From Rosistilla ulvae (GTDB lineage: Bacteria; Planctomycetota; Planctomycetia; Pirellulales; Pirellulaceae), in the NCBI RefSeq assembly GCF_007741475.1, contig NZ_CP036261.1, forward strand, positions 2,852,001-2,916,000: a DNA stretch of 64,000 nucleotides, read 5' to 3'. Numbering within the stretch: position 1 is the first letter of the stretch; the number at the start of each line of letters is the position of its first letter. Below the pieces are notes generated by a model, which worked only from the letters and a program-made list of their open reading frames with translations, did not search any database and had not been told where the DNA came from. The translations under genes were made by a program, and so were the position numbers. Of the stretch, positions 871 through 54,494 are shown piece after piece.

Positions 871-1395
871 CTTCCAACCTCAATATCGATCCAATAAGAC
901 AAGATGCAAATGGTTCGAAGCTGCCAAGCGTCGGCTCTGCTTCGTGCAAATCGATGCTAGTTAGAGGGCGTGCAAAAGCTCCCATCGAGGTGGAGTTTGC
1001 GGGAAATACTATTGCGCAAATAGCGGATTCATCGAAGCCGCTCCAGGAGCTAGCACCTGTGGTGATGTGTCTCTATCCAGAGGTGCGTGGTTTGGTGGTC
1101 GAAGTCACTTCTTTGCAACGATCGTCACTGCAACGGTTATCTGGGTAGACACCATTTTGCATGCGGCACGACGCGCCGGTGTGGCATCACGGAGGGTTTC
1201 ATGTCGATCTCGCAAGCCTGTCGAATCGGCGGTTGGAAAACTTTTTTCGAAGCCTGCCGCGTTTAGAACCTAAGCTTTCTTTGATGGCACGCCTCTGCCT
1301 GACCCCGTTGTATTCACCCACTGACGACTTGCCCTGTCGAAGCAAGGAGCGGCTTCCGTTTCGCATCCGATCTGCAAAGATTTGCGGTCAAGTTC
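871..1395. other. Intergenic region between divergent genes
   Basis: This 525-base gap separates the divergent methyltransferase fusion and multidomain kinase genes. The short open frames in it resemble no family and lack convincing ribosome binding sites. It presumably holds both promoters, but I could not pick out a clear -35/-10 pair. Confidence 0.5.
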
Positions 1396-35838: not shown

Positions 35839-38800
35839 TTAGAAATCTTCCGCGAAGATTGAGTCGACAGTCTGCTCGTATTCGCTCAACGATTCAGAGT
35901 CTTCGAACTCGTTGTTCGATGGCAGACGGTCTACAGGCGTGGTCGCATGCGGAGCGTCGATCCTGATGGTTGGCGCGTTGTCGGGATACAGGTTCCCATC
36001 CAATGCATCCGCGGAGACAACTTCATCATTCTCTTCGTCCTGTTTCGATGGAAGCTGGGACGATGGTGGTAATTCCGCTGCCACGTATGCGTTCTGCTTA
36101 TTCAACCAATTGATCACCTGCAACGCATCGACCGGCGTAACACGTTGATCGCCATTGACGTCAAGCATTGACGCTCCGTCGACGCGTTGGTGCGATAGCA
36201 ACGGATCGTTGGAACGATTCAACCGATTCAGAATCAGCAACGCATCGATCGGCTCAACCCGATCGTCGCCGTTGACATCTCGAGAATTGGATTCATTCTG
36301 CCATACGCTGCGGTCGGCGACGGCTTGCAGAACAAACGTCGTGCTCGAGTAACGAACCGGCGATCCGTTGTCGGTTGCCGTGACCGTGATCGACCACTGT
36401 CCCGATTCGGGAATCGAATCGCTGTGGAAGGCGAGGCGATTCGGATCAAAGGTGAGCCATTCGGGAAGCGCCGAACCGTCGCTTTGCCGCGCGTTGTAGA
36501 ACAGTGAGGTGTCCGAATCGGGATCGACAAACGGATCGTCGACGACGTCGAAGTCGAACGGCTTGTCGACGGTGGCTGTGAAGTTTGGCAGTTCTGCCGT
36601 CGGTTCGGGAGCCAGATTGTTCGCGGTGACCACAACGGGCGAGCCGACGATGTTCAGGGGGAGGACGTTGGAGACTTGCGGATTGGGGGCAAGTTCGAAT
36701 GCCTGGAACCAAAATTTATCCCCTTCCAGCGTAAACGGAACTGGAATGACACCGGACGTTGTGCCATCGATCCCCCCTTCGGCTAATGAACTGAAAGTGG
36801 GATTGGCGATATCCAGCGTAACCCCATATTGGGGTAGGAACGTGGAACCTGGCCCCGTTCCCCAAGCAAAGACGACGATGCCGTCGGGGGTGACGTCCGC
36901 CAGATCGACCACTGCGTATCCATCGATCAAGTGAGAAAACGAGATGACAGGTTCGTCATCAAGGCTGGTGGCAGAGAGATCCGCGATGGGGAAGTCGTCG
37001 TAATTGGGATCGTCGCTCGACACGTCGGATTGAATTGAAAACGCGACGGATCCATCGCCACGGTCATCGTCCTGCCCTTGGACCAGAATCGATTGCGGCT
37101 GATCCCAATTGCTGGCGTCAAACGTCAATGTCGCTGTCGCCGCGTAGCTGACTCCGTCGCTCGACACCAAACCTTCGGTCGCGTCGGTGCTCGAGAACTG
37201 CACGGTCACTTCGGCCGTCGGTTCCGATGTGAGTTGGATTGTAACCGTGGAAGTGCCGCCCGCTTCAGTGACGGAGAGCCCATCCACGGGGAAGATTACA
37301 AATCCCGCTTCGTCATCATCCAATATCGTACCGGTTGCCGTTCCGAACGTGACCGATCTTGTCCCCAGGTCGGTCGACGTATCCAACAAGAGACCGTAGT
37401 CCTCGTCCATTTCATCGATGGCATCTTCCATGCTTGCCACGTCAAACGTCTGAGCCGCGACACTCGACGGATCAAACGTCAACTGCACTAACGCGTCATC
37501 AAAATCAACGCCCCCCGTAGCCGTACCATCGTTAACGTGGATATCCAAAACAACTTGGGTATCGATCGGACGATCCAGCGAAACGGTAAACGTTGCCGTA
37601 TTCCCTTCGTTAACGGTGACCGCTTCGATTGTAAAGCTGGCGGCATCGTCATCGATAATCGTACCGGTGGCACTATCGCTGGCGGTCACGTTGCGCGAGC
37701 CCAATTCTGTCGATGTGCTGAGTGCTGCAGTAAAGGTCTCGGTCAATTCGACCAAGTCCTCTTCCGTCGTAGCAACGGTGAATGTTCTGGCGGTGGTAGT
37801 ACCGGCGGCAAACGTCACGATCTGAGGAACGCTTGCGTAGTCGGCGGCCGATGCCGATCCATTTGTGAAGTCGATGTCGACGATCACGTCGGTATCGATC
37901 GGATGATCTAGGGAGACGGTAAACGTTGCCGTTTCGCCTTCGTTAACGGTGACCGCTTCGATCGTGAAGCTGGCTGCATCATCGTTGGTGATCGTCCCCA
38001 GGCCTTGAGCGTCAAGGAACGTCACGTCTCGACCACCGGCTAGGATGTTGGACAGATTGACGAAGAAGCTTTCGTCGAGCTCCACCTTCTCATCGCCATG
38101 GATTTGGACCGTGATCGTTTCGGTGGCACCAGCTGCGGTGCTGGCAAAGGTGCGGGTGGTCGTTGAGATTCCGGTGTAGTCATTGTCGGCCGCGGTCGCC
38201 GAGTCGTTGGCCGTTTCAAAGTCGAACGTGACGTCGGTATCGACTTCGGCATCCAACGTGACGGTGAACGTGAAGGCCGTCGTCCCAGCATTCGTTTCGT
38301 TCTGCGTGATATCGTCGATGCTTAGCGTGGCCGTATCTTCGTTGGTGATCGTCCCCTGGCCCTGGTTGTTGTCGAACGTCACGTCTCGACCACCGGCTAG
38401 GATGTTGGACAGATTGACGAAGAAGCTTTCGTCGAGCTCCACCTTCTCATCGCCATGGATTTGGACCGTGATCGTTTCGGTGGCACCAGCTGCGGTGCTG
38501 GCAAAGGTGCGGGTGGTCGTTGAGATTCCGGTGTAGTCATTGTCGGCAGTGGTCGCCGAGTCGTTGGCCGTTTCAAAGTCGAACGTAACGCCGGTATCGA
38601 CTTCGGCATCCAACGTCACGGTGAACGTGAAGGCCGTCGTTCCAGCATCCGTTTCGTTCTGCGTGATATCGTCGATACTCAGCGTGGCAGAATCATCGTT
38701 GGTGATCGTCCCCAGGCCTTGGTTGTTGGCGAACGTCACGTCTCGACCACCGGCTAGGATGTTGGACAGATTGACGAAGAACGTTTCGTCGAGCTCCACC

Positions 38801-41800
38801 TTCTCGTCGCCATGGATTTGGACCGTGATCGTTTCGGTCGCACCTGCCGCCGTGCTGGCGAAGTTACGGGTGGTCAGCGAGATCCCGGTGTAGTCATGGT
38901 CGGCAGCGGTCGCCAAACCGTTGGCCGTTTCAAAGTCGAACGTGAGACCTGTGTCGACTTCGGCATCCAACGTCACGGTGAACGTGAAGGTCGTCGTTCC
39001 AGCATCCGTTTCGTTCTGCGTGATATCGTCGATGCTTAGCGTTGCCGCATCGTCGTTGGTGATCGTGTAGGTATGGGTACCTTGAATTGTCGAATCACCG
39101 TCGGCATCCTCGATCCGGAGGCCGGCACTTGGATTGGCGAGGGTGAGTTCGATGGTTTCGTCGAGTTCGACGATGCTTTCATCCGTGATGCTAAGAAGGA
39201 TGTCGATCGCGAAGTCTAAGGTTCCATCGTAGGTGCCGGCAGGAATCGTGACGCTGGTGGTCAAGGTAAAGTCGTCGCCAACATCCGCTGATCCACCGGT
39301 GATCGTGACGTCGATGGTCTGATCTTCACTGATAACGCCGTCGACCAGCAGTTTGGGCAGCTTGCTGCCAGTGGTGGTCTCCAGATCCGAGGCGGTGGCG
39401 GAACTGAATTCCACCTCGCCCTGGAACTGGAAATTTGAAAGCGAATCGAGTTCGTCTTGCGTCAAGAAGGCGGCAGCTTGGCCGCCGAAACCAGCAACGG
39501 TCACAAGGTTCTCGGCCGCAGCAACCGCATCTTCGCGCGCATCGGCAAGAATCGTCAGCGTCATTAGCCGCACCGTTTCATGAGCGGGCACGGTCACGAC
39601 AAATTCCCAGACGATGTTGTCATCGATCACATCAACGCTCGAAGGCAGCAGCCCGCCGGGGCCATGGATGAAGTGGATGATCGCGGGCGAACCGCTTTCA
39701 TCGGCGTCGTCGGTTCCGATCCATTGATCGGAAATTTCCACATCGGTATCGTTGTCCGAGGTGTTGAAGACCGTTGTATCGCCGTCGGATCCCAGGTTGC
39801 CAACGATCCGGACGGTCGTGGTGATATCGGCACCGGTGGGATTTTCTAGCACTTCGATCGTGTGAGCGAAGTCGTGGATGCCAGTTGTGGGAACCGTGAC
39901 TTCGCGGTACACCTTGAAAGCGGAAATCGTTTGAACATCTGTGACAAGCATCGACCCTGCATTTTTCAAAGTTGGCGAGGTGCGTGACGAAATGCTGGTA
40001 ACATCGAGACTTTGTTCGGCTTGGAAGCTGACGGCACCTCTCGATTCTGCCTGGACGGTGATGACGTATGTTCCTGCTGGTAGCATCACCCAATCTTCGG
40101 CATCAACTTGCAAGTGACGATCTGAGGCTGACGGAGCTAGCTCCAGGGAATGTGAATGCGAATCTGAAGTAAATCGGCCTATATTCACCTGGTGGCTGTG
40201 GTTCCCAGCGTATGCCGTGTTCTGCGACAAATTGTTGATAGTTAGGTTGGGATCATAATGGTATGATTCAGTCAAAACGGGCACGAATTCGCCCGCTCGG
40301 CTAACAAAGCTATGAGAGTGACTGCCTTCAACCGATGTGATTGTATTAGGCGGGTCAACACTCACACTTTCTGAACTCGTTGATCCCACCAACTGAGGCA
40401 ACTGATAGGGATTGGAAAATGTTGCTGAACTGGGTTCAGCAACACCATCGATGGAAAATCGCACCGCACCCGACCATGCTGAGTTATCTTGGGACAGTAG
40501 ATTCAATTGTGAATCCATTAACACGACGGAGTCTTCCGTCAACGTGATTGTCGTTGTAAGCCCCGGAACATCTGTAAATGTTCCTGTCAGCGACCCGACA
40601 GGAGACGCAAGTTTTTCATCGCTTGTTGCGTGAATGAAACTCACAACATCGAGACTTTGCTCGGCTTGGAAGCTGACGGCACCTGTCGATTCTGCCTGGA
40701 CCGTGATGACGTATGTTCCTGCTGGTAGCATCACCCAATCTTCGGCATCAACTTGCAAGTGACGATCTGAGGCTGACGGAGCTAGCTCCAGGGAATGTGA
40801 ATGCGAATCTGAAGTAAGTCGGCCTATATTCACCTGGTGGCTGTGGTTCCCAGCGTATGCCGTGTTCTGCGACAAATTGTTGATAGTTAGGTTGGGATCA
40901 TAATGGTATGATTCAGTCAAAACGGGCACGAATTCGCCCGCTCGGCTAACAAAGCTATGAGAGTGACTGCCTTCAACCGATGTGATTGTATTAGGCGGGT
41001 CAACACTCACACTTTCTGAACTCGTTGATCCCACCAACTGAGGCAACTGATAGGGATTGGAAAATGTTGCTGAACTGGGTTCAGCAACACCATCGATGGA
41101 AAATCGCACCGCACCCGACCATGCAGAGTTATCCTGGGACAGCAGGTTCAATTGTGAATCCAGCAGCACGACGGAGTCTTCCGTCAACGTGATTGTCGTT
41201 GTAAGCCCCGGAACATCTGTAAATGTTCCTGTCAGCGACCCAGCAGAGGAAACAGCCACCGATTGCACTGAAGACTGTTCCACAAGTGAAGGACCATAAT
41301 CAATACCGTCAACTTGCAGGCGATTCAAACCGTCAAACGCATTGTTTGTTCCCTGCACCAGTTGCCCGGCACCGAAACCACCGAATTCGACGTCAAAGTC
41401 AAAGCCGTTGGGTGACGTGAGTGTGTGCGTCGTCGCACCGACCACAAAATCCGCGACAAAGTCACCTCCCGCAACACCATCACCGTCTCCGTCGATTGGA
41501 TCGCCGCCGGGACCAAGCAGTGAATCCGTGCTCGTCAGGCGATAAACGCTTTCCGGCAAAGCGGCAAACGTGAGCGTTACGGAATCGCCGTTGTACGTTG
41601 GCGGGTCGATCGAGACCATGACATCATCGGCATTGCCCAACAAACCATCGTGTCCCACCGACTGCAACACAAACGGAGCCGTTCCAGCTCCCGCATCGAC
41701 CGCGCGGCTGAAGTCGATCGTCAGTTCCGTGGTACCCGCAGCGATAACGCCCGCGGCCAGCGAGGGTGTCGTGCCGGTGATCGTGTTTGCGGCAACCGCA

Positions 41801-44800
41801 GTTAGAGTGTAGTTCGCGGCGTCACCACCGTAGCTGATTTGGAATAACGATGCTTCGGTCGCGAAAATCGCTCCCTCGCTGAGTCCCTGGAACACCGTCC
41901 CTGTCTCGTCCGCTCCGGCGTCACTGCGGATGTCAATGATCTGAAATGTTTCTCCTGCATCCGGGGATCCGGTAAGTGTGACCGAGAGTTTGCCACCCTG
42001 GTTGGACATCGCACTGGTTATAATTTTGTCTGAGTAACCAGCGTCTGTCCGGAGAATATCCACGTGGTACAGAGAACCCGCCAGAAGTTTCAGGGCCGAG
42101 GCCTGGATCGTACCAATTCCACTCGGACTGACAGCTCCGGGACTCAGCGTTCCGCCATCGGCAACGGTGATGAGTCCAGTGACCGTTTGGTTTCCGGCAA
42201 GCGTTCCTCCCGATGCGACGTGGACGTTTCCGTGAATCATGTCGCCGCCCGCTACTGTCGCTCCGTCTTGGATCGAGACTTGCCCATTAAGGTTGTCTCC
42301 ATTGCTTAAATCGAACGTGCCTGAACTTAGTACGATGTTCCCCGTAATGTTCGAGCTAACCGATGTCGTCGTTCCCGAAGACAATTCGACGTTGCGATTC
42401 GTCGACTCAATGGGACTGTTCAGAATCAAATTCCCTGATGCTGCCAAGCGGACATCGAAATCGGTCAAAGTAATCGGCTGATTCACAGTGATTGAAGTCG
42501 CTTCGACAGCGAAGTCTGCAATTGCATTGATTGCCCCGTCGACGGCCACGTTAACATCGTCGGATCCTAGGAAATCCGCATCCACGTTCAGTGCCCCTGT
42601 GAACGCCGGGTCCAGCGATGCAATCGAAATCGTGTCGGTGCCGTCACCTCCACGAATGGTCAGTGATCCCGATGGATTCGGAAAGATCTGTTCTTCGAAA
42701 TCGCCAATTGGACTGTAGAGTCGCATGACGCCAGGTTTGGTGGCATCTGTGGGATCGATGTCTTCCAAAACGGCAGATGTCACCCCCGCAGGCAATTCGA
42801 AAACCATGTCTTCGACTACCGAATTGAACTCAAAGGGCTCGAGTCCCAACCAGACTAGGGATACGATTTCGTCGCTGTCGGTAGGGTCGAAAACCGTCTG
42901 GCCGTCGGTGGCATTGGTGAGAGATACCGTTACGGTGTCGAAATCTCCACCGCTGACAATTGCCGAATCGAATCCTGTGCCTCCTCCGCCATCGAACGTG
43001 ATCGTGTCGCTTCGATAAGTTCCTGCGGAGAAGTCGAGGAATAGCGTATCATCGATATCGTCTTGTCCCGTGAGCAATGCCTGCCATGGCTCGGTCTGGA
43101 ATCCACCAAAGACCTCCACGTCATCTTCGATTACAAACACGTCCTCTTCGCTTAGTGCGACGACAAACTGATTCTCGGTCTGATCGGCAAGATGCGTCGC
43201 CGTATAATCGACGGCATCGTCGTTGATGATAAAGCCCGCTCCAACCTCGCGGCGCACGATGGCGTTTTCGGCGTCGAATAAGTTCAGCAGAAACCTTTCG
43301 TCCGCTTCGGCAACCTCGTCGCCACGAACGACAACGCTGACCGTTTGCTCGCCCGATTCACCTGGAGCCCAGTTCAACGTGCCACTGGTTGGCGTATAGT
43401 CGCCATCGGCAGCCTCCGCCGTATCGTCGTTCGTCTGGTATTCAACCGAGACAGGGAATTTTGACGCAGAGGTCAGCGAGACGGTGAAGTCAAAGGATGT
43501 CGTCCCGTCGTCGCCTTCGGTCTTTACGACATCGTTCACAAAGATGACGGGAACTTCGATGTCTCCAACGGGCGTATTGGCGACAGCCGTGTCAAGGGCC
43601 GCGCCCGCATAGGCCGCGAGCACGGTCGCGATATCCGTCGAACCGCCAGCAACGGCTTGTAAGTCCGTAGCCAGAGCGCCCTGCATCCATGCTTCCACCC
43701 GCACGATGTCTTCGACAAATGCGGCGTCCGTGGTGACGGGCAGGTCGCGAATCTTCAAATTGCCGCGTGCGATCAATGAAGCTGCACCATCAATCACGTC
43801 GGCCGAGAGTGTGATGCCGGTACGGAATCCGATTCCTTCAAGCAACGAACGTACGGTGGATTCATTCGCCAAGTCGATTTCTGAACCAGCATCCTGGATG
43901 CGCGAAGCGATCTCAGCGTAGGCCAGATCAACAAGCAAATTCGAGGGCGGAGCGCCAGGCGCGGCGGAGAACAGGCTTGCCGCGTCGACGGTGGCATTGA
44001 ACAGTTCGGCGGAACGTGCATATCCGACTGCAGCATCCGCATTGCCATCCATCGTCGCCTCAAACAGGTCCAGTGTGTCGAGTTCCATGCCGTCAGGCAT
44101 TCCCATCGACTGAACCACGCGCTCGCTTGCCTGTGGAATATCAAATCCCAGTTGCGTGAGATGCTGAATCGTCGACGAGATCGAACTGAGCAGTAACTGT
44201 CCGGGTACGGACGAGAACTGGCCGACGAATGGCAGTTGTGTTGCCCCATCGGTGCCACCGATTAGAACGAAGCGGCCTTCATCGAGATCCAGGGTCTCGT
44301 TGCCATCCACATCAAAAGCAGAATCGATATCAAGGGCAAAGCTTCCGTCCTGCAGGGTTGTCGTGACCGGTTCGGACGGTTCACCTTCGTCCTGAATACC
44401 ATTGTCATTCAAGTCGAGATAATCGACGATTCCATTGAAATTGGCATCGAAGAAGGCAGTGCCGTCGACGATATAGCCTCCGTTGACCGCTAACTGTCCG
44501 TTGAAAATGCGGTCGGAGACGGGGATCTGCGACAGATTGATCGAGCTTCCGAACCCAGAGCGACAATCGCCAATCGTTTTTAAATTGATCCTTGGGTTCA
44601 CGGCCAGCGTGCCGGAAACCGTCTCCGCGTTACTTGAACTGGAAGACAAGACTCGGCAGGCATCACTTGGAACGATGTAAACGGAGAATAGGTTTCTCGA
44701 TTTGTCGGTTACGGCATTCTTTGTATTGCTTGAGAGGAACAGCAACAACCTTTCCCTGTTCTCGCTGCGGCTGTCATTTGTAATTCTGACCTGGAAGGAC

Positions 44801-47800
44801 TTGATCGTCTCTCCCGGCTTAAAGGTCAGTGTCCTGTTGCGGAAATTATGGTCGCTGGTGGTTGCGGTCGAGTATCTTGAAATCCCAATCGGCACGGTGA
44901 TCGTTTTGCCACTTGCCCTGGAAAGCCGGACCTCCACCCATGCCCCCTGGCCTTCTTTCCGCTCATACGATGTCACCTTAAACGAAGCAACTGGCTGGGC
45001 GTCGTCGTCATATACGCTAACGGTTTCTGACCTTTTAAGTTTCGATGATGTCGTAGCATTGGTGGGGGTTGCGATGCTGACTTTAACTTTTTCGGTGTAT
45101 TCATCAATGCTGTCGTTCTTGGCTTTGATTGTGAATGTCTTGCTGGTTTGGCCGGGGCTGAACGTTACGCTTGATGGTCCTGTAAAATCTCTGTTGCGCC
45201 CCGCGGAAGAGCCCGCATAGGAGAGCGGAACCGTGACGGTACGGTTTGATGAGGCTGTCAGCCGCAACGTAATCGACGTGCTGGTTTGGTTTCGCTCACT
45301 GATGCTGGAACCTTCACCCATGTAGACGTAAGGATCATCGTCGCGGATCTTGAGCCGAAAATAATCTTGGTTTCCAATCTTCACGCCGTCGGAATTGGCG
45401 ATTCTTACGTAGCCGTACTCGTCACCTTCGTTATGGGAGTCAGCATAAGGATCGACCGTGAGGGTCTTGCTTGTCTGTCCAGCAGTGAACGTGACCGAGG
45501 TCGTGCTAATATCGAAGTCGCGTGAACTGCCCGTCGACTTCACGCCCGTTGTGTACAGCAGTACGGTAACATCCGTTGCCGACGGAGGGGTTAGCGTCAG
45601 TGTTACCGTCTGCGGACCTGCATTTTCCCAAACCGTGGTTCCGCTCGACGAAAACTCTAAGATCGATGTATCGTCGTCGATGATGGTGCCCACAAATGAG
45701 CGTGTGGTACCCAGGACGGCATTTGTTGGTTCTCCTAGCCGTAGGGTGACGTTCTCGTTGTTTTCGTCGATGATGTCATCCAGGCCCGTCAGCGTGATAA
45801 CGCCCTCCGTCTCTCCGGCAGCGATCACAATCGACCCAATTGGCGAGACGCTGTAATCGCCAGCTGTTACCTCGAGGCCGTTCACAAGAGTGTAAGGGAC
45901 GGTTACCGGAAGTACATGTGGTTCCGATAGGCGCACCGTCGCCGCAAGCTGACCGCCGTTTTCGCTAAAACTACCTTGGCTCGCAGTAAAACTAACATTG
46001 GGGACGTCATTCTGTGGGATCGTAATCACGTGCGTCAGCGGATCACCGACGGCGGTAGAAAGCGTTGCTCCGATTGGCGTGCCAAGTTCTGCAACGATAC
46101 GCTCGGTCAACTCCGGCGTTGTATCGTCAACGATCATCAAAGGAATCGAACCGCGAAGCGAACCGGCCGGAATCCAAATCTCAGGATCGGCGGCGATTGC
46201 GTAGTCGGTTCCGTTTGTTGCCGTACCCGACAACAGAATCGGTACGTGGATATCGACTTCGGATTCCGCCAAAATACGTGCTTCAATCACGATCGGACCC
46301 GCATCTTCCGCGGCGGTAACGCCCAATGTAAAGAACGACAATTCGGGGATTGCGTCGTTGTCGTTGATGGTCAGCGTTTGAACTGGCGTTGCACCTGGCG
46401 CTACACCAACGCCAGGCTGCATCGTTAGGACGACGGTGTTCGCCCCCTCGAATCGAAGGTCATCGTCGATAGCTAAAGTTAACGTACCCGTAGTGCTACC
46501 TGCAGGGAAAAAGAAGTTCGGGTCCGATGCGAAATAGTCGAAATTCAGATCGGCCGTGCCAGAGAACGTGACTGGCACCGTCGTATCAAACGGCAGCGGT
46601 TGGGCAAGCTGAGCCACAATCTGCACGACACCCGCGTCCTCGTCAGCCGATGCCGTCGCGTCGGAAAACGAAGCGGTTATCTTTTGGAAATTCCCGAAGT
46701 TCGCGTCAACGGCGATCTCACCGGATCCCAGTGTAAGTGAATGGAATCCAACCACGGGTGGAGTGGCATCGAGTTCCTGAAGCGAATAAGGATCGACCGT
46801 CACGGTTCCCACGGAACCGTCATCAGCGCTGTCGTAAACGGAATTCGCAATTTCAAGTGCCGATTGGGTTCCCCAGTAGTTGCCTGCTAGGTTGCGATCA
46901 TTGACAGAGAGGTTCTGGGCGTTGAAGACGGTGTTGTCGAAGATGTTGTTGCTTGTGACTGCCGTTGTAAAATGTGACGTCAGTTCAAGTCCGATTTCGT
47001 TGCCAACGATGTTGTTGTTGCGCAACTGCGGACCGCCATACCCAGCAGAGGTAACGGCGATGCGATTTCCCGTGAACGTTGAGTATTCGATCAGCGTGTC
47101 GCTGCCGGTGTCGACTGCGATATCGTTGTTCTCGAACAATCCATTGACAACCTTATGACGCCCGGCACGATCGATCACCGTGCCGTTGTTGCGGAAAATC
47201 GAATCGTAAAAGGTACGGTCACCGTTTCTGGAAACCGAAGTGTTGTTTTCAAACAACGAACGGAAGACTTCGACGTCTCCGCCAGAATAGCCGCCGAAGA
47301 CAAGCGAGTTGTGCCGGAACGTGCTGTCCGAAATGGTGGCTGGAATGATCGAATTGGTGCAGCATGAAACCTGGAACGCAGTATTGGCGTACTCCAGTGC
47401 GACGAAGCCCAGTTCCGCTGTGCCGCCGATCGTGTTTTCCAGTTGAATGCCGTTCCAGTCGTTCATCGCCGGAGTCGCCGACGAACTGGTCAGCAGGATG
47501 GGAGCGGCGTCGGTACCGACGGCATCTAGGTGGCCACGGACTGTCAGGCGGGTTCCGGAATCAAACAGCACCACGACGCCCGGATCGATGGAGAGCGTCG
47601 TATCGGGAAAGACCAAAACATCGCCAGTCACGCGAACCGGAGAATCGGCGAGGCTCCACGTTGTGTCTTCAAATAGCGCACCATTTACCGTTGCGGCGGT
47701 GGAGATCGTTGCGTGATCGATGGTCGTCGTTGCCGGTGCCGCCGGAGGTGCCGGAGTTTCCAACGCTGGCAACGACTGCTGCCAGGTGGCCTGTGGCACT

Positions 47801-50800
47801 TCACCAACGGAATAGGTCCCCGCCGCCAGATTGGTAAAGCTGTAGCTGCCGTCATCGGCCGTGGTGGTACTCGGCTCGCCGGTATCTTTCTGCCGATTGT
47901 TGTTGAGATCTAAGAAAATTGTCCAGTCCGACAGTCCTGGCTCTCCGGCATCCTGAATGCCGTCGGCATCAAGATCATCAAATTTGACGCCATGAATTTC
48001 GACGGGAGCGGGACGATCGGTTTCATGATGGCCGAAGTCGATATCGGTTATCGTGGACCCGCTGGTGGTGGAGAGGTCGACAAACCCGGTTGCCGGAAGG
48101 GTGTTGATCCAGCCAGCGCGTCCGACTTCGCGGAGCCGATAGGAGCCTGGGGTTAGGTTCGTAAAGGCGTAGGTCCCATCGGAAGCGGTCGCGACTCGGT
48201 GTTCGAAGTTGTCCAATTGGCCATTGTCGTTGGTGTCGATGTAAATCGTCCAACCCTCGAGGCCAGATTCGCCTGCGTCTTTGATGCCGTCGCCGTTAAT
48301 GTCATCGAACTTAACACCGCTGATCGTCGTTAGTTGATAATTGCCAAAGTCAACGTTCGAAAGGGTTTCCCCATGTGACACGCTTACTGGAAAACTCCCC
48401 GCAAGCAATGGTGTCACCTCTGGCGCGGCAGTAAGAATGGGTTCGTAGGAAACGAGCCCGAGACCAACGTCCTCTCGAGCATCCTCAATGGTTGCGTTGA
48501 TGCTGGCGCTGTCGGTCACACCCCAGTAATTGTTCGCTGCGACTTTGTTGTTGGTGCCGAAGGTTTTCAGGTTGAGAGTCGTATTGTTGTGGAACGAATT
48601 TCCTTCAACCGTAATCGCGTCGTTGCGGCCACTGCCCAGGATCGCTCCGATATCGTTGTTACTGATCTCGTTATTGTACAGCCGGGGCCCAGAATTAAAG
48701 GATGCTTCCACTCCGGTCGCATTTTCTGTGATCCGAGAATAATACACCGACATGTCCGACGCACCGGTGATTCCGATGGAGTTGTTTCGAAATGTGCTCG
48801 TCCAGACAGTCGTCCGTCCGCCGTCACGAATACCTGTCGTGTTGTTGGCGAATAATGAATCTGTGATTTGCTTGTCGACACTCGAAACGCCGTAAGTGTT
48901 GCTGTCGAAGACGGTGCGTTCAATGATAACCTTTGCACCAGAATAGCCGCCGACGCCCGACTGGTTATGGCGGAAAACGCTGTCCGAGATCACGGCAGGG
49001 GATGTGGTGCTGCAACATTCGACCTGAATCCCTGTACTGCTATATTCCAGCGTCACAAACTCCAGTACCACATGCCCCCCCTGCGTATTGCGTATATTGA
49101 TTCCATTCCAGTCAGCTTTGGCCGGCGTGGCTGCGGATGATGTAAACAGAATCGGGTCGGCGCTCGTACCGACAGCTGACAACTCGCCCTCAACAACCAA
49201 GTGTGCACCAGCCGCAAACAAAACTTCTACACCGGGTTCGACCGTCAGAGTCGCGCCCGCAGAAATGGTGACGGGGGTGGTCACCAAGTAAGGCCCAGCC
49301 GCTTTTGTCCACGTCGTGTCTGCGGTGATATCGGTACTCAATGTAGTATTCGAAATCCCGGTACGCGCCAGAATCGGCGGATTCGGTTCGACGAGTCTGG
49401 CAGCCACCGGTGCTGGCAGACTGGCGACCCAGCCGGATTTACCGACTTCGACGATATCAAGCGATCCTGCGGGAACATTGCTAATCGTGTAAACGCCATC
49501 GCTGTCAGTTGTGTCGCTGATTTCTCCGGTATCGAGCACACGATTGCCATTGGTATCGACAAAGATTGTCCAGCCCGCCAAACCAGGCTCACCAGGATCG
49601 CGAACCCCATTCGCATTCAGGTCTTCAAATTTCGCACCCTTCACGACGTTTGGCATTGGAGTCAGTGTGACGTCGTTGCCGTCGCCTCCAAGGTAGGAAA
49701 TCTGAAAGTTCCTACCGTCGATGCCAACGACACTTCCCTCTGCAAGGCCGTTAAAAGTTCCGGTGACACTGTCAGATCCAACGTTGTCGATGATCAGAAA
49801 CGTGTCGGTTATCAGAGGCGCATAGGTTCGCGCGGCATCCAACGTGGCACCACCCAGATCCACCGTGCCATTGACAACAATTTGGTCATACTCGGTGCTG
49901 GCGGTTGCCCCGTCAATTTCGACGAAGAACGTTGAACCGGATGTAAGTCGGAGATCGCCCGTAGTGAGTCTGCCAGGACTGTTGCCTGGACTCAGCATGG
50001 CGGTGCTATTCAACTGCACTGCACCGTTAACTGTCCCTGAACCGCCGAGAGTTGTGCCGGAGGCGACGACGACATCACTTGCCGCAGGTCCATCGGCAAG
50101 GCTACCGTCAATATTCAGACGTCCACTTTGAACCGTGGTGACTCCGGTGTACGTATTCGCTCCTGACAGCGTGAATATACCTGAACCCTGCTTCACTAAA
50201 CCGCCAGTGCCGCTGATCACACCATTGTAAGTGGAACTGCTTGCATCCCCCGTCGTCAGCGTACCACCGCCCAACGCGATCTCTCCGCCTCCGTTCTGAC
50301 CACGCAGTCGACCAATTGTTTCATCGAAGCCGTTGAGGTCCAGTGTGGTGCCGGAGTTAACAGCGACTTCGCCCACGTCTGGAATTGCACCGGACGCGCC
50401 AATTCGGATTGAGCCAGCACTGATCCCAGTGCCACCGGTGTAGCTGTTGACACCGCTCAGAGTCAGAGTCCCAGAGCCATTCTGTGTCAGGTGACCGCCA
50501 CCACGGATGACACCGCTGAAGGCTGTTGATTGGCCGTCGCCTCCATTTTGCAGACTGACAGATCCGTTGAGAACAACGTCACCTTCTCCAGCCAGTGAAC
50601 CAATTCCATCGAAGCCTATGGCTGGATCCAGGCTGAGAGTCGCACCGGACGCAATCGCCACCGCGCTGCCATTGGGGATGGCACCGCCAAAGCCCCCGCT
50701 GTCGTAAAGAGTCCCCGCATTGATAGATGTCGCCCCTGAATAGGTGTTGCTGCCACTCAATGTCTGCGTGCCTGTCCCGATCTTCGTCAGACCACCACTA

Positions 50801-51951
50801 CCACTGATGAGGCCACCAAAGTCATTGCTCAACTCGTTGCCACCGGTTGTCAGCGTTTGTGTTCCAAGATCAATCTCGCCAACGGTTCCCTGCAGCGAAC
50901 CGATCGTTTCGTCGAAACCATCTAGAACGATGGTGGGGCTGTCGGATCCGATGAAAAGACGACTGGCATCGGGAATTGCATCCGCGGCATTCAGCCGCAG
51001 AGTCCCGCTTCCACTTACCGATGTCTGGCCGGACCACGCTCCAGTTCCCGAGAGCACAACGGAACTGTCCGCACCAAACGGGCGCAATCTGACTTCGTGT
51101 CCGGCGCCGTTGTCGGTGATGTTGCCAGAAACTGTCAGCACATGATTGGATTGCGAAAGGAACGTTGGGCTGTTCGCCAAAATTGTGGTTGGGCCACTTA
51201 ACGTGCCAAATCCGGTAATTGTGGCACTCCCAATATTAAAGGGTTCTGCGGTTGTGACTCCGTTGAGGACGAGGGTCGCGCCGGAAGACAGGCTGGTGGC
51301 ACCCGACGCTGCACCGAGGGCTTCGTCGTGAAAAATGTCGATCGTCCCTTCAAGGATTTGAGTGATTCCCGAGTAGGTATTGTCGCCAAGTAGCCGGACT
51401 CGCGAAACGGATCCTGTCTTGGTGATGCCGCCACTGCCACTAATCATGCCTGAAAGACTCATCATGCCGGGAATCGTCTCATCGTTCAGCGTGAGCGTGT
51501 GAGTGCCAAGATCGATCGTTCCCTGAATGTCCAGTGCACCATCTGTCTGAATCGTCTGAGAGCCGGTCAATTCCAGTGGTACGTTAAACGTGTTTGTGCC
51601 GGCAGACTGGTTGTCGATCCCATTGGCCAGTCCAATACTGTTGCCGGTGAGCGTGTAGCCGGCGTCAGTGAAGACGATCGAATCGAAAGCTGTACCGGTG
51701 GCGAAGTTGTTCGTGTTCGCTAATCGAGCCGCACCGCTAGGAAATTCAAGTTGGTCACCTGAAACAGGCGCTACGTTATTGGTCCAGTTGGCGGGCGTCG
51801 ACCAGAAAGCGTCGTCGCCACCACCGTCCCAAACCACTGTCGCCAGCATCCGCCGATCTTCCAGTTGTTCGGCGAGCATTCGTCGTCGCCTCGGCGCCAA
51901 TTGTGACTTATTGTTTCGCTTGCTTGAACGTTTTATTCGTGCCTGACTCAT
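35839..51951 (-). CDS. Giant 5370-residue multidomain surface protein (beta-repeat, SdrD-B-like, beta-helix, Calx-beta, dockerin-like)
   Basis: The N terminus carries the planctomycete motif QLEDRRMLA (about 29-37) instead of a standard signal peptide. Domains in order: autotransporter-associated beta-strand repeats (about 165-620; GSGTLTLSGVNSYTGGT type); an SdrD-B-like domain; a right-handed beta-helix (about 950-1140); two more SdrD-B-like domains (FDDINGDGIKDAGE, FDDLDADGIQDAGE); a second beta-helix (about 1480-1700); Calx-beta domains (about 1750-2400); an EF-hand-like stretch (DANFNGIVDYLDLNDNGIQD) and a helical domain (about 2600-2800); a Calx-beta domain; a duplicated His-rich unit (about 3571-3983); more Calx-beta domains including three near-identical units (about 4300-4657); and dockerin-like repeats at 5225-5245 and 5264-5284 (DVNGDxRVxPxDAL). 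It is probably exported and calcium-binding, perhaps an adhesin or envelope scaffold; that is inference. Divergent from a sigma factor/kinase pair. The frame is intact over 16 kb. Confidence 0.9.
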   Translation of the reverse strand: MSQARIKRSSKRNNKSQLAPRRRRMLAEQLEDRRMLATVVWDGGGDDAFWSTPANWTNNVAPVSGDQLEFPSGAARLANTNNFATGTAFDSIVFTDAGYTLTGNSIGLANGIDNQSAGTNTFNVPLELTGSQTIQTDGALDIQGTIDLGTHTLTLNDETIPGMMSLSGMISGSGGITKTGSVSRVRLLGDNTYSGITQILEGTIDIFHDEALGAASGATSLSSGATLVLNGVTTAEPFNIGSATITGFGTLSGPTTILANSPTFLSQSNHVLTVSGNITDNGAGHEVRLRPFGADSSVVLSGTGAWSGQTSVSGSGTLRLNAADAIPDASRLFIGSDSPTIVLDGFDETIGSLQGTVGEIDLGTQTLTTGGNELSNDFGGLISGSGGLTKIGTGTQTLSGSNTYSGATSINAGTLYDSGGFGGAIPNGSAVAIASGATLSLDPAIGFDGIGSLAGEGDVVLNGSVSLQNGGDGQSTAFSGVIRGGGHLTQNGSGTLTLSGVNSYTGGTGISAGSIRIGASGAIPDVGEVAVNSGTTLDLNGFDETIGRLRGQNGGGEIALGGGTLTTGDASSSTYNGVISGTGGLVKQGSGIFTLSGANTYTGVTTVQSGRLNIDGSLADGPAASDVVVASGTTLGGSGTVNGAVQLNSTAMLSPGNSPGRLTTGDLRLTSGSTFFVEIDGATASTEYDQIVVNGTVDLGGATLDAARTYAPLITDTFLIIDNVGSDSVTGTFNGLAEGSVVGIDGRNFQISYLGGDGNDVTLTPMPNVVKGAKFEDLNANGVRDPGEPGLAGWTIFVDTNGNRVLDTGEISDTTDSDGVYTISNVPAGSLDIVEVGKSGWVASLPAPVAARLVEPNPPILARTGISNTTLSTDITADTTWTKAAGPYLVTTPVTISAGATLTVEPGVEVLFAAGAHLVVEGELSAVGTSADPILFTSSAATPAKADWNGINIRNTQGGHVVLEFVTLEYSSTGIQVECCSTTSPAVISDSVFRHNQSGVGGYSGAKVIIERTVFDSNTYGVSSVDKQITDSLFANNTTGIRDGGRTTVWTSTFRNNSIGITGASDMSVYYSRITENATGVEASFNSGPRLYNNEISNNDIGAILGSGRNDAITVEGNSFHNNTTLNLKTFGTNNKVAANNYWGVTDSASINATIEDAREDVGLGLVSYEPILTAAPEVTPLLAGSFPVSVSHGETLSNVDFGNYQLTTISGVKFDDINGDGIKDAGESGLEGWTIYIDTNDNGQLDNFEHRVATASDGTYAFTNLTPGSYRLREVGRAGWINTLPATGFVDLSTTSGSTITDIDFGHHETDRPAPVEIHGVKFDDLDADGIQDAGEPGLSDWTIFLDLNNNRQKDTGEPSTTTADDGSYSFTNLAAGTYSVGEVPQATWQQSLPALETPAPPAAPATTTIDHATISTAATVNGALFEDTTWSLADSPVRVTGDVLVFPDTTLSIDPGVVVLFDSGTRLTVRGHLDAVGTDAAPILLTSSSATPAMNDWNGIQLENTIGGTAELGFVALEYANTAFQVSCCTNSIIPATISDSTFRHNSLVFGGYSGGDVEVFRSLFENNTSVSRNGDRTFYDSIFRNNGTVIDRAGRHKVVNGLFENNDIAVDTGSDTLIEYSTFTGNRIAVTSAGYGGPQLRNNNIVGNEIGLELTSHFTTAVTSNNIFDNTVFNAQNLSVNDRNLAGNYWGTQSALEIANSVYDSADDGSVGTVTVDPYSLQELDATPPVVGFHSLTLGSGEIAVDANFGNFQKITASFSDATASADEDAGVVQIVAQLAQPLPFDTTVPVTFSGTADLNFDYFASDPNFFFPAGSTTGTLTLAIDDDLRFEGANTVVLTMQPGVGVAPGATPVQTLTINDNDAIPELSFFTLGVTAAEDAGPIVIEARILAESEVDIHVPILLSGTATNGTDYAIAADPEIWIPAGSLRGSIPLMIVDDTTPELTERIVAELGTPIGATLSTAVGDPLTHVITIPQNDVPNVSFTASQGSFSENGGQLAATVRLSEPHVLPVTVPYTLVNGLEVTAGDYSVSPIGSIVIAAGETEGVITLTGLDDIIDENNENVTLRLGEPTNAVLGTTRSFVGTIIDDDTSILEFSSSGTTVWENAGPQTVTLTLTPPSATDVTVLLYTTGVKSTGSSRDFDISTTSVTFTAGQTSKTLTVDPYADSHNEGDEYGYVRIANSDGVKIGNQDYFRLKIRDDDPYVYMGEGSSISERNQTSTSITLRLTASSNRTVTVPLSYAGSSAGRNRDFTGPSSVTFSPGQTSKTFTIKAKNDSIDEYTEKVKVSIATPTNATTSSKLKRSETVSVYDDDAQPVASFKVTSYERKEGQGAWVEVRLSRASGKTITVPIGISRYSTATTSDHNFRNRTLTFKPGETIKSFQVRITNDSRSENRERLLLFLSSNTKNAVTDKSRNLFSVYIVPSDACRVLSSSSSNAETVSGTLAVNPRINLKTIGDCRSGFGSSINLSQIPVSDRIFNGQLAVNGGYIVDGTAFFDANFNGIVDYLDLNDNGIQDEGEPSEPVTTTLQDGSFALDIDSAFDVDGNETLDLDEGRFVLIGGTDGATQLPFVGQFSSVPGQLLLSSISSTIQHLTQLGFDIPQASERVVQSMGMPDGMELDTLDLFEATMDGNADAAVGYARSAELFNATVDAASLFSAAPGAPPSNLLVDLAYAEIASRIQDAGSEIDLANESTVRSLLEGIGFRTGITLSADVIDGAASLIARGNLKIRDLPVTTDAAFVEDIVRVEAWMQGALATDLQAVAGGSTDIATVLAAYAGAALDTAVANTPVGDIEVPVIFVNDVVKTEGDDGTTSFDFTVSLTSASKFPVSVEYQTNDDTAEAADGDYTPTSGTLNWAPGESGEQTVSVVVRGDEVAEADERFLLNLFDAENAIVRREVGAGFIINDDAVDYTATHLADQTENQFVVALSEEDVFVIEDDVEVFGGFQTEPWQALLTGQDDIDDTLFLDFSAGTYRSDTITFDGGGGTGFDSAIVSGGDFDTVTVSLTNATDGQTVFDPTDSDEIVSLVWLGLEPFEFNSVVEDMVFELPAGVTSAVLEDIDPTDATKPGVMRLYSPIGDFEEQIFPNPSGSLTIRGGDGTDTISIASLDPAFTGALNVDADFLGSDDVNVAVDGAINAIADFAVEATSITVNQPITLTDFDVRLAASGNLILNSPIESTNRNVELSSGTTTSVSSNITGNIVLSSGTFDLSNGDNLNGQVSIQDGATVAGGDMIHGNVHVASGGTLAGNQTVTGLITVADGGTLSPGAVSPSGIGTIQASALKLLAGSLYHVDILRTDAGYSDKIITSAMSNQGGKLSVTLTGSPDAGETFQIIDIRSDAGADETGTVFQGLSEGAIFATEASLFQISYGGDAANYTLTAVAANTITGTTPSLAAGVIAAGTTELTIDFSRAVDAGAGTAPFVLQSVGHDGLLGNADDVMVSIDPPTYNGDSVTLTFAALPESVYRLTSTDSLLGPGGDPIDGDGDGVAGGDFVADFVVGATTHTLTSPNGFDFDVEFGGFGAGQLVQGTNNAFDGLNRLQVDGIDYGPSLVEQSSVQSVAVSSAGSLTGTFTDVPGLTTTITLTEDSVVLLDSQLNLLSQDNSAWSGAVRFSIDGVAEPSSATFSNPYQLPQLVGSTSSESVSVDPPNTITSVEGSHSHSFVSRAGEFVPVLTESYHYDPNLTINNLSQNTAYAGNHSHQVNIGRLTSDSHSHSLELAPSASDRHLQVDAEDWVMLPAGTYVITVQAESTGAVSFQAEQSLDVVSFIHATSDEKLASPVGSLTGTFTDVPGLTTTITLTEDSVVLMDSQLNLLSQDNSAWSGAVRFSIDGVAEPSSATFSNPYQLPQLVGSTSSESVSVDPPNTITSVEGSHSHSFVSRAGEFVPVLTESYHYDPNLTINNLSQNTAYAGNHSHQVNIGRFTSDSHSHSLELAPSASDRHLQVDAEDWVMLPAGTYVITVQAESRGAVSFQAEQSLDVTSISSRTSPTLKNAGSMLVTDVQTISAFKVYREVTVPTTGIHDFAHTIEVLENPTGADITTTVRIVGNLGSDGDTTVFNTSDNDTDVEISDQWIGTDDADESGSPAIIHFIHGPGGLLPSSVDVIDDNIVWEFVVTVPAHETVRLMTLTILADAREDAVAAAENLVTVAGFGGQAAAFLTQDELDSLSNFQFQGEVEFSSATASDLETTTGSKLPKLLVDGVISEDQTIDVTITGGSADVGDDFTLTTSVTIPAGTYDGTLDFAIDILLSITDESIVELDETIELTLANPSAGLRIEDADGDSTIQGTHTYTITNDDAATLSIDDITQNETDAGTTTFTFTVTLDAEVDTGLTFDFETANGLATAADHDYTGISLTTRNFASTAAGATETITVQIHGDEKVELDETFFVNLSNILAGGRDVTFANNQGLGTITNDDSATLSIDDITQNETDAGTTAFTFTVTLDAEVDTGVTFDFETANDSATTADNDYTGISTTTRTFASTAAGATETITVQIHGDEKVELDESFFVNLSNILAGGRDVTFDNNQGQGTITNEDTATLSIDDITQNETNAGTTAFTFTVTLDAEVDTDVTFDFETANDSATAADNDYTGISTTTRTFASTAAGATETITVQIHGDEKVELDESFFVNLSNILAGGRDVTFLDAQGLGTITNDDAASFTIEAVTVNEGETATFTVSLDHPIDTDVIVDIDFTNGSASAADYASVPQIVTFAAGTTTARTFTVATTEEDLVELTETFTAALSTSTELGSRNVTASDSATGTIIDDDAASFTIEAVTVNEGNTATFTVSLDRPIDTQVVLDIHVNDGTATGGVDFDDALVQLTFDPSSVAAQTFDVASMEDAIDEMDEDYGLLLDTSTDLGTRSVTFGTATGTILDDDEAGFVIFPVDGLSVTEAGGTSTVTIQLTSEPTAEVTVQFSSTDATEGLVSSDGVSYAATATLTFDASNWDQPQSILVQGQDDDRGDGSVAFSIQSDVSSDDPNYDDFPIADLSATSLDDEPVISFSHLIDGYAVVDLADVTPDGIVVFAWGTGPGSTFLPQYGVTLDIANPTFSSLAEGGIDGTTSGVIPVPFTLEGDKFWFQAFELAPNPQVSNVLPLNIVGSPVVVTANNLAPEPTAELPNFTATVDKPFDFDVVDDPFVDPDSDTSLFYNARQSDGSALPEWLTFDPNRLAFHSDSIPESGQWSITVTATDNGSPVRYSSTTFVLQAVADRSVWQNESNSRDVNGDDRVEPIDALLILNRLNRSNDPLLSHQRVDGASMLDVNGDQRVTPVDALQVINWLNKQNAYVAAELPPSSQLPSKQDEENDEVVSADALDGNLYPDNAPTIRIDAPHATTPVDRLPSNNEFEDSESLSEYEQTVDSIFAEDF
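37981..39051 (-). repeat. Three tandem 357-base Calx-beta units
   Basis: Units at about 37981-38337, 38338-38694 and 38695-39051 are highly similar; the shared anchor GCTAGGATGTTGG starts at 38039, 38396 and 38753. Each encodes 119 residues containing IDDITQNET and VTLDAEVDT. Confidence 0.9.
40001..40596 (-). repeat. Near-identical duplicated unit, copy A (C-terminal copy)
   Basis: This 596-base block matches 40646-41241 with roughly a dozen differences, at a period of 645 bases (215 codons, in frame). It encodes the His-x-His-rich unit of the giant protein. Confidence 0.93.
40646..41241 (-). repeat. Near-identical duplicated unit, copy B (N-terminal copy)
   Basis: Partner of 40001-40596. 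The encoded unit has three His-x-His motifs (GSHSHS, GNHSHQ, DSHSHS). The near identity at DNA level indicates recent duplication or gene conversion. Confidence 0.93.
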
Positions 51952-52275
51952 CGGATCGCTTTTCTAACCGTGTGCTGTGCCGCTTGGATTCCGTCATTGT
52001 CGTTCTGGAGGCTTTTCCACGTGCCGACGCAGTGGCATCGTTACGCGTACCGGTAACCCCCCTCAAAAGGTATTGGCGGATTTCTTTGCCGCAAAAACCA
52101 CAAAATTCGGATTATCGTTAAAGCTGCCGCGTGGTGGCCGCCGGGTAGCCCGCAAGGGTGGACTTGCGTGCAGTATGGTGGTTTGCGTGCGGTTAGGTTG
52201 AAATACGTACATGCAAGTCAGCACCACCGATTTCGTGATCCGAGCAATACGAACGACTTGTCAGAGGTCAGTCGC
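51952..52275. other. Divergent promoter region of the giant gene and the sigma/kinase pair
   Basis: This 324-base gap contains no gene. It is GC-mixed with an A/T-rich stretch near 52085-52120 that may hold promoters, but no convincing -35/-10 pair could be assigned. The ribosome binding site of the giant gene is weak. Confidence 0.4.
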
Positions 52276-52890
52276 ATGAGCACTACTGCCGATGGATCGC
52301 CGCTAACCGACAATGAATTCCAGCGACTGCTGCGAGAAACACGCGCTGGTTGCGACGCGTCGTTGGGGAAACTGCTGGAGCCGCATCGTGAGCTTTTAAC
52401 TCATGTTGCCCGGGCAAAGCTTGATTCGAAGATGCGAAAGAAGATGTCGGGCTCCGATTTGGTTCAAGACGCCTTCGCGGTGGCGACACGCGATTTTGGA
52501 GACTTTCGGGGCCAACGCCCTGAACTCCTCAACGCCTGGCTGTTAACGATTTTGAATCACCAGCTGATCGAAGGTTTTCGTCGGTTCAAGGTTTCCGAGA
52601 AACGGCGTCTACAGCGTGAATTGCCCGACGGGGAAAACTGTCTGAGCCAAACGGCAGATGACGGAGATTCGCCAAGTGCGGTGCTCTCTGCCAAAGAAGA
52701 CGTGGCGCAACTGCTTGGCGCGATCGGACAATTGCCTGAAGAGCTACGCCAGATCGTACAGATGCGTTATCTCGACAACCGTACGTTTGATCAGATTGCG
52801 ACAGAACTTAATCTGCCAACCTCCACCTGCCGACGTCGCTGGTTCGAAGCGATTCAAACGATTGGACACCAGATCGACGGTGCCGTGTGA
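52276..52890 (+). CDS. ECF-like RNA polymerase sigma factor
   Basis: The ATG at 52276 has GAGG eight bases upstream and yields 204 residues; the longer frame from 52168 lacks such a site. Region 2 is visible as KKMSGSDLVQDAFAVATRDF with LNAWLLTILNHQLIEGFRRF, and region 4 as RTFDQIATELNLPTSTCRRRW. This matches the planctomycete sigma group found beside Ser/Thr kinases. Its stop overlaps the GTG start of the kinase gene by four bases, so the kinase may regulate it by phosphorylation, as is proposed for such pairs. The divergent giant surface protein gene is a possible target, by position only. Confidence 0.9.
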   Translation: MSTTADGSPLTDNEFQRLLRETRAGCDASLGKLLEPHRELLTHVARAKLDSKMRKKMSGSDLVQDAFAVATRDFGDFRGQRPELLNAWLLTILNHQLIEGFRRFKVSEKRRLQRELPDGENCLSQTADDGDSPSAVLSAKEDVAQLLGAIGQLPEELRQIVQMRYLDNRTFDQIATELNLPTSTCRRRWFEAIQTIGHQIDGAV

Positions 52891-54494
52891 GCGATTCCCG
52901 CAAAGACGTCGACGACCAAGCCCGCCGCGCAGCCGGATATGAACGTGCGCTCGCTTCGGATTCGGATCCAGTTGACGTTCGTTTTGAACAGGAACACGCC
53001 AAGACGGCCCGTGTGCTGCGGATGCTGAATACTGTTTTTGAGCGGGCCGAAGTGCCCCCGCCGGAACCTGTTCTGCCCGAGAAAATCGGACGCTTTGAAG
53101 TGTCGGGTTTGTTGGGACGCGGAGGGATGGGAACGGTCTATCAAGCGCGTGACCCCGAACTGGACCGTGACGTCGCGATCAAGGTGGCCCGCGTCGATGG
53201 CACTGACCCGGCCGAAATGCATCGTCGATTGCACCGCGAGGCGCGTGCGGTCGCGACGCTCGATCATCCCGGCATTGTTCCGGTCTATGAGATCGGGACG
53301 ACCGATCAGGGACAGCGTTTTCTGGTGATGGCCCTGTGCGAGGGGGAGACGCTTGGGGCTTGGATCGAGCGGCAAACCGGCCCCATCGATCCGATACTTG
53401 CGGCGCGAACGATCGCTGACGTCGTCGATGCAGTTCAGTACGGCCACCAGCACAATGTGCTACACCGCGACCTAAAGCCGGCGAATGTTCTGTTGTTTCC
53501 CAACCGCGAGAACGGCGATTCCAACTCGCTGCCTTGGATCCCACGGGTGACCGATTTTGGGTTGGCATGCTCGATCGATCAGCGTCTAAAAGAAACCGGC
53601 AGCAGCGTCATGCTGGGCACCCCGCTGTATATGTCTCCCGAGCAAGCCCATGGAGGCGATGGAGAGGCAGGGCAGGCGACGGACATCTTTTCGATCGGGG
53701 CAATCTTGTACCATCTACTCACCGGATCGCCGCCATTTGCAGCGTCGAATTATCCGGCGGTATTGATGCGATTGCAGAACGACACGCCGGTGCCCATTTC
53801 GCAGGTGCTGCCAGAAATCGACAAGGATCTCGCCACGATTTGCATGAAGTGTCTGGAGAGAGTGCCTGAGGATCGGTACTCGCGTAGTGCGGATCTGGCC
53901 GCCGACCTACATCGATTTTTGGAGGGGGATGCCATCTCCGCACGCGCTCAGAGCCCGTGGCATCGATTGCGGCGGTGGAGCCAACGTCCCGCGCGGGTTT
54001 CCGATCTGTCGGCGGCGATCATCCTTGTCGTCTGCGCTCGGATTTTCTTTGGGATCGCAGGCTTGGTGGCGATTCCGATGTACGGTCAATCCGTCTTCAA
54101 TCCGAGTGACATGGTTGAATCGTTGTTGGTCCATGGCTTGGTGATCATTCCGTGCGAGTTATGGACCATTTGGGCTGCGCGTCAAAACCAGCAACGTCGG
54201 CTCTCACCGGGTTTATATTGGATCGCGTATCTGCTTACGATCGCGTGGTGTTGCGTCACATGGATGATTGCCAGTGGCGTCTCGGGAGCGTCGTCATGGT
54301 ACGATCGTAATCCCGATGCGCGTTTAATGACGTTCTTGATGATCAGTATCTTATATGGCGCCCAAACGATCTGTTGGTACCTCGCAGACTGGCGCAGGAT
54401 AGAACCCGGGACGTCGCAACGACGCTGGCGGACCCTCAAACGCCTTGCCCTGATGGGACCGGTTCTCGCATTCGCAGCCGTGATGCTCTGGTAG
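52887..54494 (+). CDS. Membrane-anchored Ser/Thr protein kinase
   Basis: Translation starts at a GTG inside the GTGA overlap with the sigma gene; 535 residues. The kinase domain (about 67-330) is complete: LLGRGGMGTVY, VAIKVA, HRDLKPANVLLF, VTDFGLAC and SPEQAHG. The C-terminal 160 residues hold about four or five hydrophobic segments (AIILVVCARIFFGIAGLVAI to GPVLAFAAVMLW) with no large external sensor. It probably sits in the cytoplasmic membrane and signals to the paired sigma factor, which is inference from the gene overlap. Confidence 0.93.
   Translation: MSDSRKDVDDQARRAAGYERALASDSDPVDVRFEQEHAKTARVLRMLNTVFERAEVPPPEPVLPEKIGRFEVSGLLGRGGMGTVYQARDPELDRDVAIKVARVDGTDPAEMHRRLHREARAVATLDHPGIVPVYEIGTTDQGQRFLVMALCEGETLGAWIERQTGPIDPILAARTIADVVDAVQYGHQHNVLHRDLKPANVLLFPNRENGDSNSLPWIPRVTDFGLACSIDQRLKETGSSVMLGTPLYMSPEQAHGGDGEAGQATDIFSIGAILYHLLTGSPPFAASNYPAVLMRLQNDTPVPISQVLPEIDKDLATICMKCLERVPEDRYSRSADLAADLHRFLEGDAISARAQSPWHRLRRWSQRPARVSDLSAAIILVVCARIFFGIAGLVAIPMYGQSVFNPSDMVESLLVHGLVIIPCELWTIWAARQNQQRRLSPGLYWIAYLLTIAWCCVTWMIASGVSGASSWYDRNPDARLMTFLMISILYGAQTICWYLADWRRIEPGTSQRRWRTLKRLALMGPVLAFAAVMLW

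Follow-up and report, generated by a model that had tools for sequence, protein, structure and literature searches.

The window, that is, the whole 64,000-nucleotide stretch of DNA analysed here, carries on its minus strand the gene of a giant protein in which two nearly identical units rich in His-x-His motifs interrupt another extracellular domain. The gene and its features are as follows.

35839..51951, minus strand: open reading frame (ORF) of the giant secreted/surface protein, 5,370 aa (ORF list, domain scan)
41287..41496, minus strand: interrupted parent domain, N-terminal half, about residues 3486-3555 (comparison with the G006 and G072 orthologues)
40642..41241, minus strand: unit 1, residues 3571-3770, putative beta-sandwich core plus His arm (self-comparison, alignments)
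40753..41079, minus strand: arm of unit 1, about residues 3625-3733, between two core strands (alignment A2)
40957..40965, minus strand: HSH of GSHSHS in unit 1, within an extra insert of about 38 residues that is absent from G128
40837..40845, minus strand: HSH of GNHSHQ in unit 1, invariant in 5/5 units
40795..40803, minus strand: HSH of DSHSHS in unit 1, invariant in 5/5 units, 14 residues past the GNHSHQ pair
40597..40641, minus strand: linker between the units, residues 3771-3785, unrepeated (self-comparison)
39997..40596, minus strand: unit 2, residues 3786-3985, 98% identical to unit 1 (self-comparison, substitution count)
40108..40434, minus strand: arm of unit 2, about residues 3840-3948 (alignment A2)
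40312..40320, minus strand: HSH of GSHSHS in unit 2
40192..40200, minus strand: HSH of GNHSHQ in unit 2
40150..40158, minus strand: HSH of DSHSHS in unit 2
40480..40521 (other copy 41125-41166), unstranded: cluster of seven of the 11 differences between the units (clustering p = 1e-4)
39397..39978, minus strand: interrupted parent domain, C-terminal half, about residues 3992-4185 (comparison with the G006 and G072 orthologues)

The giant protein starts with an N-terminal LEDRRML-type planctomycete signal and continues through PATR repeats, SdrD_B and Calx-beta domains to a dockerin-like end, and thus has what is typical of giant proteins secreted by planctomycetes, namely a Planc_extracel signal, adhesive repeats and a dockerin-like end. 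The scores of Calx-beta, SdrD_B, PATR and dockerin lie above the cut-offs, and Planc_extracel scores 18.7 bits, below its cut-off of 25.5. Head-to-head with the gene, at 52168-54491, lie an ECF-type sigma factor and a Ser/Thr protein kinase. Within the Calx-beta region, at 37924-38937, lie three tandem 357-nt copies that are 84-88% identical, a second, older duplication in the giant ORF.

Self-comparison at an offset of 645 nt delimits a repeated block of about 597 nt (40000-40596 versus 40645-41241), with an abrupt onset at 40000/40001 and an end at about 40596; identity per 100 nt is 94-100% inside the block and 17-32% outside. The period equals 215 residues, made up of a repeated part of about 199 and an unrelated linker of about 15, and the duplication is in frame. 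Over 40001-40600, 13 positions differ from the other copy, including two in a boundary codon, and the 594 aligned nucleotides contain 11 differences, eight of them synonymous and three nonsynonymous (L/M, L/F and T/R). With a dN/dS of 0.12 and a probability of 0.001 for so few nonsynonymous changes without selection, the substitution pattern indicates that the units are under purifying selection. The seven clustered differences lie within 42 nt and adjoin an identical stretch of 306 nt, a pattern resembling gene conversion, whether between the two copies or into them, that makes the divergence of the units a poor clock for their duplication. All six His-x-His motifs of the protein fall in the two units, each of which has GSHSHS, GNHSHQ and DSHSHS. 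The preliminary description, which had reported a recent in-frame duplication of near-identical blocks with a 215-residue period and three such motifs per block, inside a surface protein, is confirmed on all these points.

Comparison with the same-genus orthologues in G072 and G006 places the pair of units inside another domain. In both orthologues the loop of the parent domain is uninterrupted, residue 3555 joining directly to 3992 (junctions at 2239/2241 in G006 and 4490/4492 in G072), which makes the unit pair a clean insertion, in frame, into that loop. The G072 orthologue is 95.5% identical over residues 1-3473, and the one in G006 is more distant. From this comparison the units would most simply have been gained here, loss in both relatives being the less simple alternative. 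Their GC3 of 0.47-0.48 is the lowest along the gene (0.55-0.74 in the other 200-residue blocks), in keeping with recent acquisition. Both the uninterrupted loop and the low GC3 agree with the earlier suggestion of an acquired module; direct repeats at the borders, which would hint at the mechanism of insertion, were not found around the units. At residues ~3480-4430 of the G072 orthologue (L038), a stretch resembling a coiled coil and a series of 'VQSDGKIVVAGxSYNGS' repeats, both absent from the window protein, sit near where the orthologue ceases to match; this spot of divergence between the two proteins is one that gains and loses modules.

Relatives of the unit are rare. A tblastn-type search of 199 family genomes returned one other bearer, G128, and a profile and alignment of the five armed units (two from the window, three from G128; A1) found no armed unit beyond G128 in 241 family, 398 class and 392 phylum genomes. 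The G128 protein (L011:6991-10062) is a secreted protein of 1,023 aa with three tandem units and, C-terminally, two dockerin-like EF-hand stretches; its units are 38-48% identical to those of the window. A1 also has a weak match (E 1.6e-5) in G042 (L014), to three tandem domains with which a 2,307-residue frame begins, and the reciprocal G042 profile finds the window units (E 5e-7). In a joint alignment of the armed units and the G042 domains (A2), the latter match the core strand by strand and lack both the arm and the His pairs, from which we infer that each unit consists of a beta-sandwich core and a His arm that sits between two of its strands. On the stretch with the three tandem armless domains (L014 of G042, ORF 1354-3174), Pfam DUF4397 scores above its cut-off and a siphovirus Dit C-terminal model just under its own. 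Weak A1 matches in G216 and G219 look like chance and are not in surface proteins; further weak matches occurred in G448, G506 and G534. Scans of genome contigs for the unit gave no confirmed relative, a sequence search of the PDB gave only chance-level matches, a plasmid search found no relative, and a source of the inserted units was not found in the collections searched.

The arm, about 70 residues long in G128 and about 110 in the window units, carries the histidines. All five known armed units, two of which are near-identical, share two invariant His-x-His pairs with a constant spacing of 14 residues, and the four histidines of these pairs are among just ~40 invariant columns of A1. The third pair, GSHSHS, lies in the insert of about 38 residues and occurs in the window copies only. 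Invariance across units as diverged as those of the window and G128 speaks for constraint on the motifs.

For the core, a TNF/C1q-like jelly roll is tentatively suggested by modelling, and would be expected to have the same pattern of strands. The AlphaFold2 model of one unit, whose input alignment consisted of the two window copies (the G128 and G042 rows being absent), has a pLDDT of 45, with 55-65 in the core and below 40 in the arm; the model of both units in tandem has 35. Both models are too poor for placing the arm. Foldseek with the unit model gave no match at E <= 0.001. Structure comparison of the same low-confidence model gave jelly rolls at Z 7-9 with no leader (RANKL, 4-1BBL, CD40L, TNF-like lectins and viral capsid domains), and beta-sandwiches of other kinds score as high as the TNF-like proteins. 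The unit is probably a beta-sandwich, and its fold class is the more provisional part of the assignment.

The reading that we prefer, and to which we give about an even chance, is a metal-binding arm on a beta-sandwich, inserted here as a unit after the genus split and then duplicated. The arm of ~110 residues would extend from between two core strands of a TNF/C1q-like beta-sandwich, and its paired histidines would hold a transition metal (iron, zinc or nickel). The metal may join the arms of several units, within one chain or between chains, or may instead stabilise a protruding binding tip; the unit as a whole would then be a beta-sandwich exposed for adhesion or ligand binding, with metal giving its arm stiffness or linking it to other arms. 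Probably coming from another bacterium, the units would have entered the loop of the parent domain after the genus split, one unit would then have been duplicated, and selection, probably together with gene conversion, would have kept the copies alike.

Metal binding is the best candidate function of the arm by analogy, and is plausible because the pairs are invariant in diverged units and share their 14-residue spacing with T4 gp37. On a beta-strand, the two histidines of a His-x-His pair point to the same side, an arrangement established for the fibre sites, which would here suit the holding of one metal ion together with the pairs of neighbouring arms. Such pairs could also serve ligands other than metal. 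A role without metal, with the unit serving as a common type of beta-sandwich that binds sugar or protein and the His pairs being a contact surface or a peculiarity of the family, is unlikely in our view but is the strongest of the alternatives. The armless G042 relatives live without the histidines, giant planctomycete proteins are rich in adhesive beta-sandwich domains, and the low-confidence structure matches include TNF-like lectins; yet both H.H pairs rank among the few invariant A1 columns, and the histidines are never lost in armed copies.

That the arm is a true phage HxH needle, acquired from a phage, with three chains joining into an iron-binding needle at the surface of the bacterium, is considerably less probable. 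In gp37 and R-pyocin fibres, HxH motifs are known to bind iron between three chains, and in R1 and R2 pyocin fibres six HxH histidines from three chains hold an octahedral iron as in gp37 (2XGF) (PMC6116203); paired-His iron sites have also been proposed for an Alteromonas phage (PMC11705849). In T4 gp37 the HxH spacings are 32, 14, 37, 14, 9 and 9, so that the 14-residue spacing of the invariant pairs occurs there twice; it is common in phage fibres as well, yet 7, 9, 12 and 13 are frequent too in this sample, which was chosen by spacing. A PHROG scan matched a tail-fibre family weakly on the arm (unit residues 92-151, E 1.8e-4; 3.4e-4 in a second scan), at similar strength in the window copies only. 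The match disappeared after masking of the histidines and was absent in six of six His-preserving shuffles; since it is lost both ways, the histidines and their neighbouring residues both contribute. The low GC3 of the units would likewise fit an origin in phage.

Against this stands, above all, the lack of phage relatives: tblastn against 50,697 phage records and a pattern scan of 2.9 million viral contigs (IMG/VR) returned no relative of the unit. One Enterobacter phage match from the tblastn search (E 6), an unannotated short protein, was set aside. Phage Collar (PF07484) and the Phage_fiber repeat (PF03335), both present in T4 gp37, have no match in the units up to E 5, although HMMER filters may hide weak matches to the 14-residue model of the latter. 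We also built a fibre profile, scoring only the non-His positions, from 62 non-redundant phage HxH-x11-HxH windows. It accepted both T4 stretches and 58 of 60 held-out fibre windows at p<0.05, but the four distinct unit arms gave p = 0.15, 0.04, 0.19 and 0.41 against shuffles, little or no better than the shuffles themselves. With phmmer, the window unit had no similarity to 198 phage HxH ORFs, and a G128 unit only marginal similarity to them. The core, finally, is homologous to planctomycete domains without the arm. Of the tail-fibre likeness proposed in the preliminary description, the 14-residue His spacing of gp37 remains, without a phage or viral relative or either fibre domain; the one positive is the weak PHROG match (E 2e-4), and the suggested tail-fibre origin is not upheld. 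Judged on sequence, the phage resemblance is one of His arrangement and at most faintly of neighbouring residues, the core points to planctomycete domains, and the unit does not appear to be a domain of phage origin.

Slightly less probable again is a needle-like variant of metal binding in which a cellular surface protein makes a metal-centred needle from one or a few chains: the tandem jelly-roll units form a covalent pseudo-trimer, their arms meet, and His-x-His pairs of different units share octahedral metal sites. The tandem copy number is three in G128, three in G042 and two in the window protein, and both known armed proteins have six His-x-His motifs per chain, three units with two motifs in G128 and two units with three in the window; the threefold repetition in the G128 and G042 chains would, speculatively, suit a kind of domain that comes together in groups of three. 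That the second copy is an assembly artefact is very improbable: nothing other than the high similarity of the copies favours it, and the genome is a single contig of 7,475,804 b with the unit region present once, the copies carry 11 true, mostly synonymous and clustered differences, and an unrelated linker separates them.

Returning to the preferred metal-binding arm, we regard the unit as a rare domain variant and the locus as a case in which a giant planctomycete protein gained a module nested in another domain, a natural example of how such proteins grow by loop insertion, in-frame duplication and purifying selection. Its direct relative is the G128 protein, with tandem units and the same two invariant His pairs; there, unlike in the window, the units follow right after the signal, are un-nested, and lack the third pair and its insert. 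The tandem domains of G042 share the core strands, the tandem arrangement and the setting in a planctomycete extracellular protein, but neither the arm nor its His pairs. At the level of predicted fold only, the tail fibre gp24 of the myocyanophage Pam3 is similar to the proposed unit in being TNF-like, with a distal receptor-recognising domain that extends from the jelly roll (PMC9608196), an extension that is glycine-rich rather than His-rich. The lectins BC2L-C and PLTL likewise have a TNF-like jelly roll, and the low-confidence structure matches of the unit include lectins of this kind. With the tip of T4 gp37 and the shaft of R-pyocin fibres the unit shares repeated His-x-His motifs, with the same 14-residue spacing twice in gp37; it differs in that the motifs lie in an arm inserted in a putative beta-sandwich repeated within one chain, and in having no Collar, Phage_fiber or recognisable fibre relative. 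If the paired histidines bind metal, the arm would correspond, in a cellular protein and on a different domain, to the phage HxH needle, suggesting that paired-His metal sites have been used convergently for making thin, protruding adhesive tips stiff or for assembling them.
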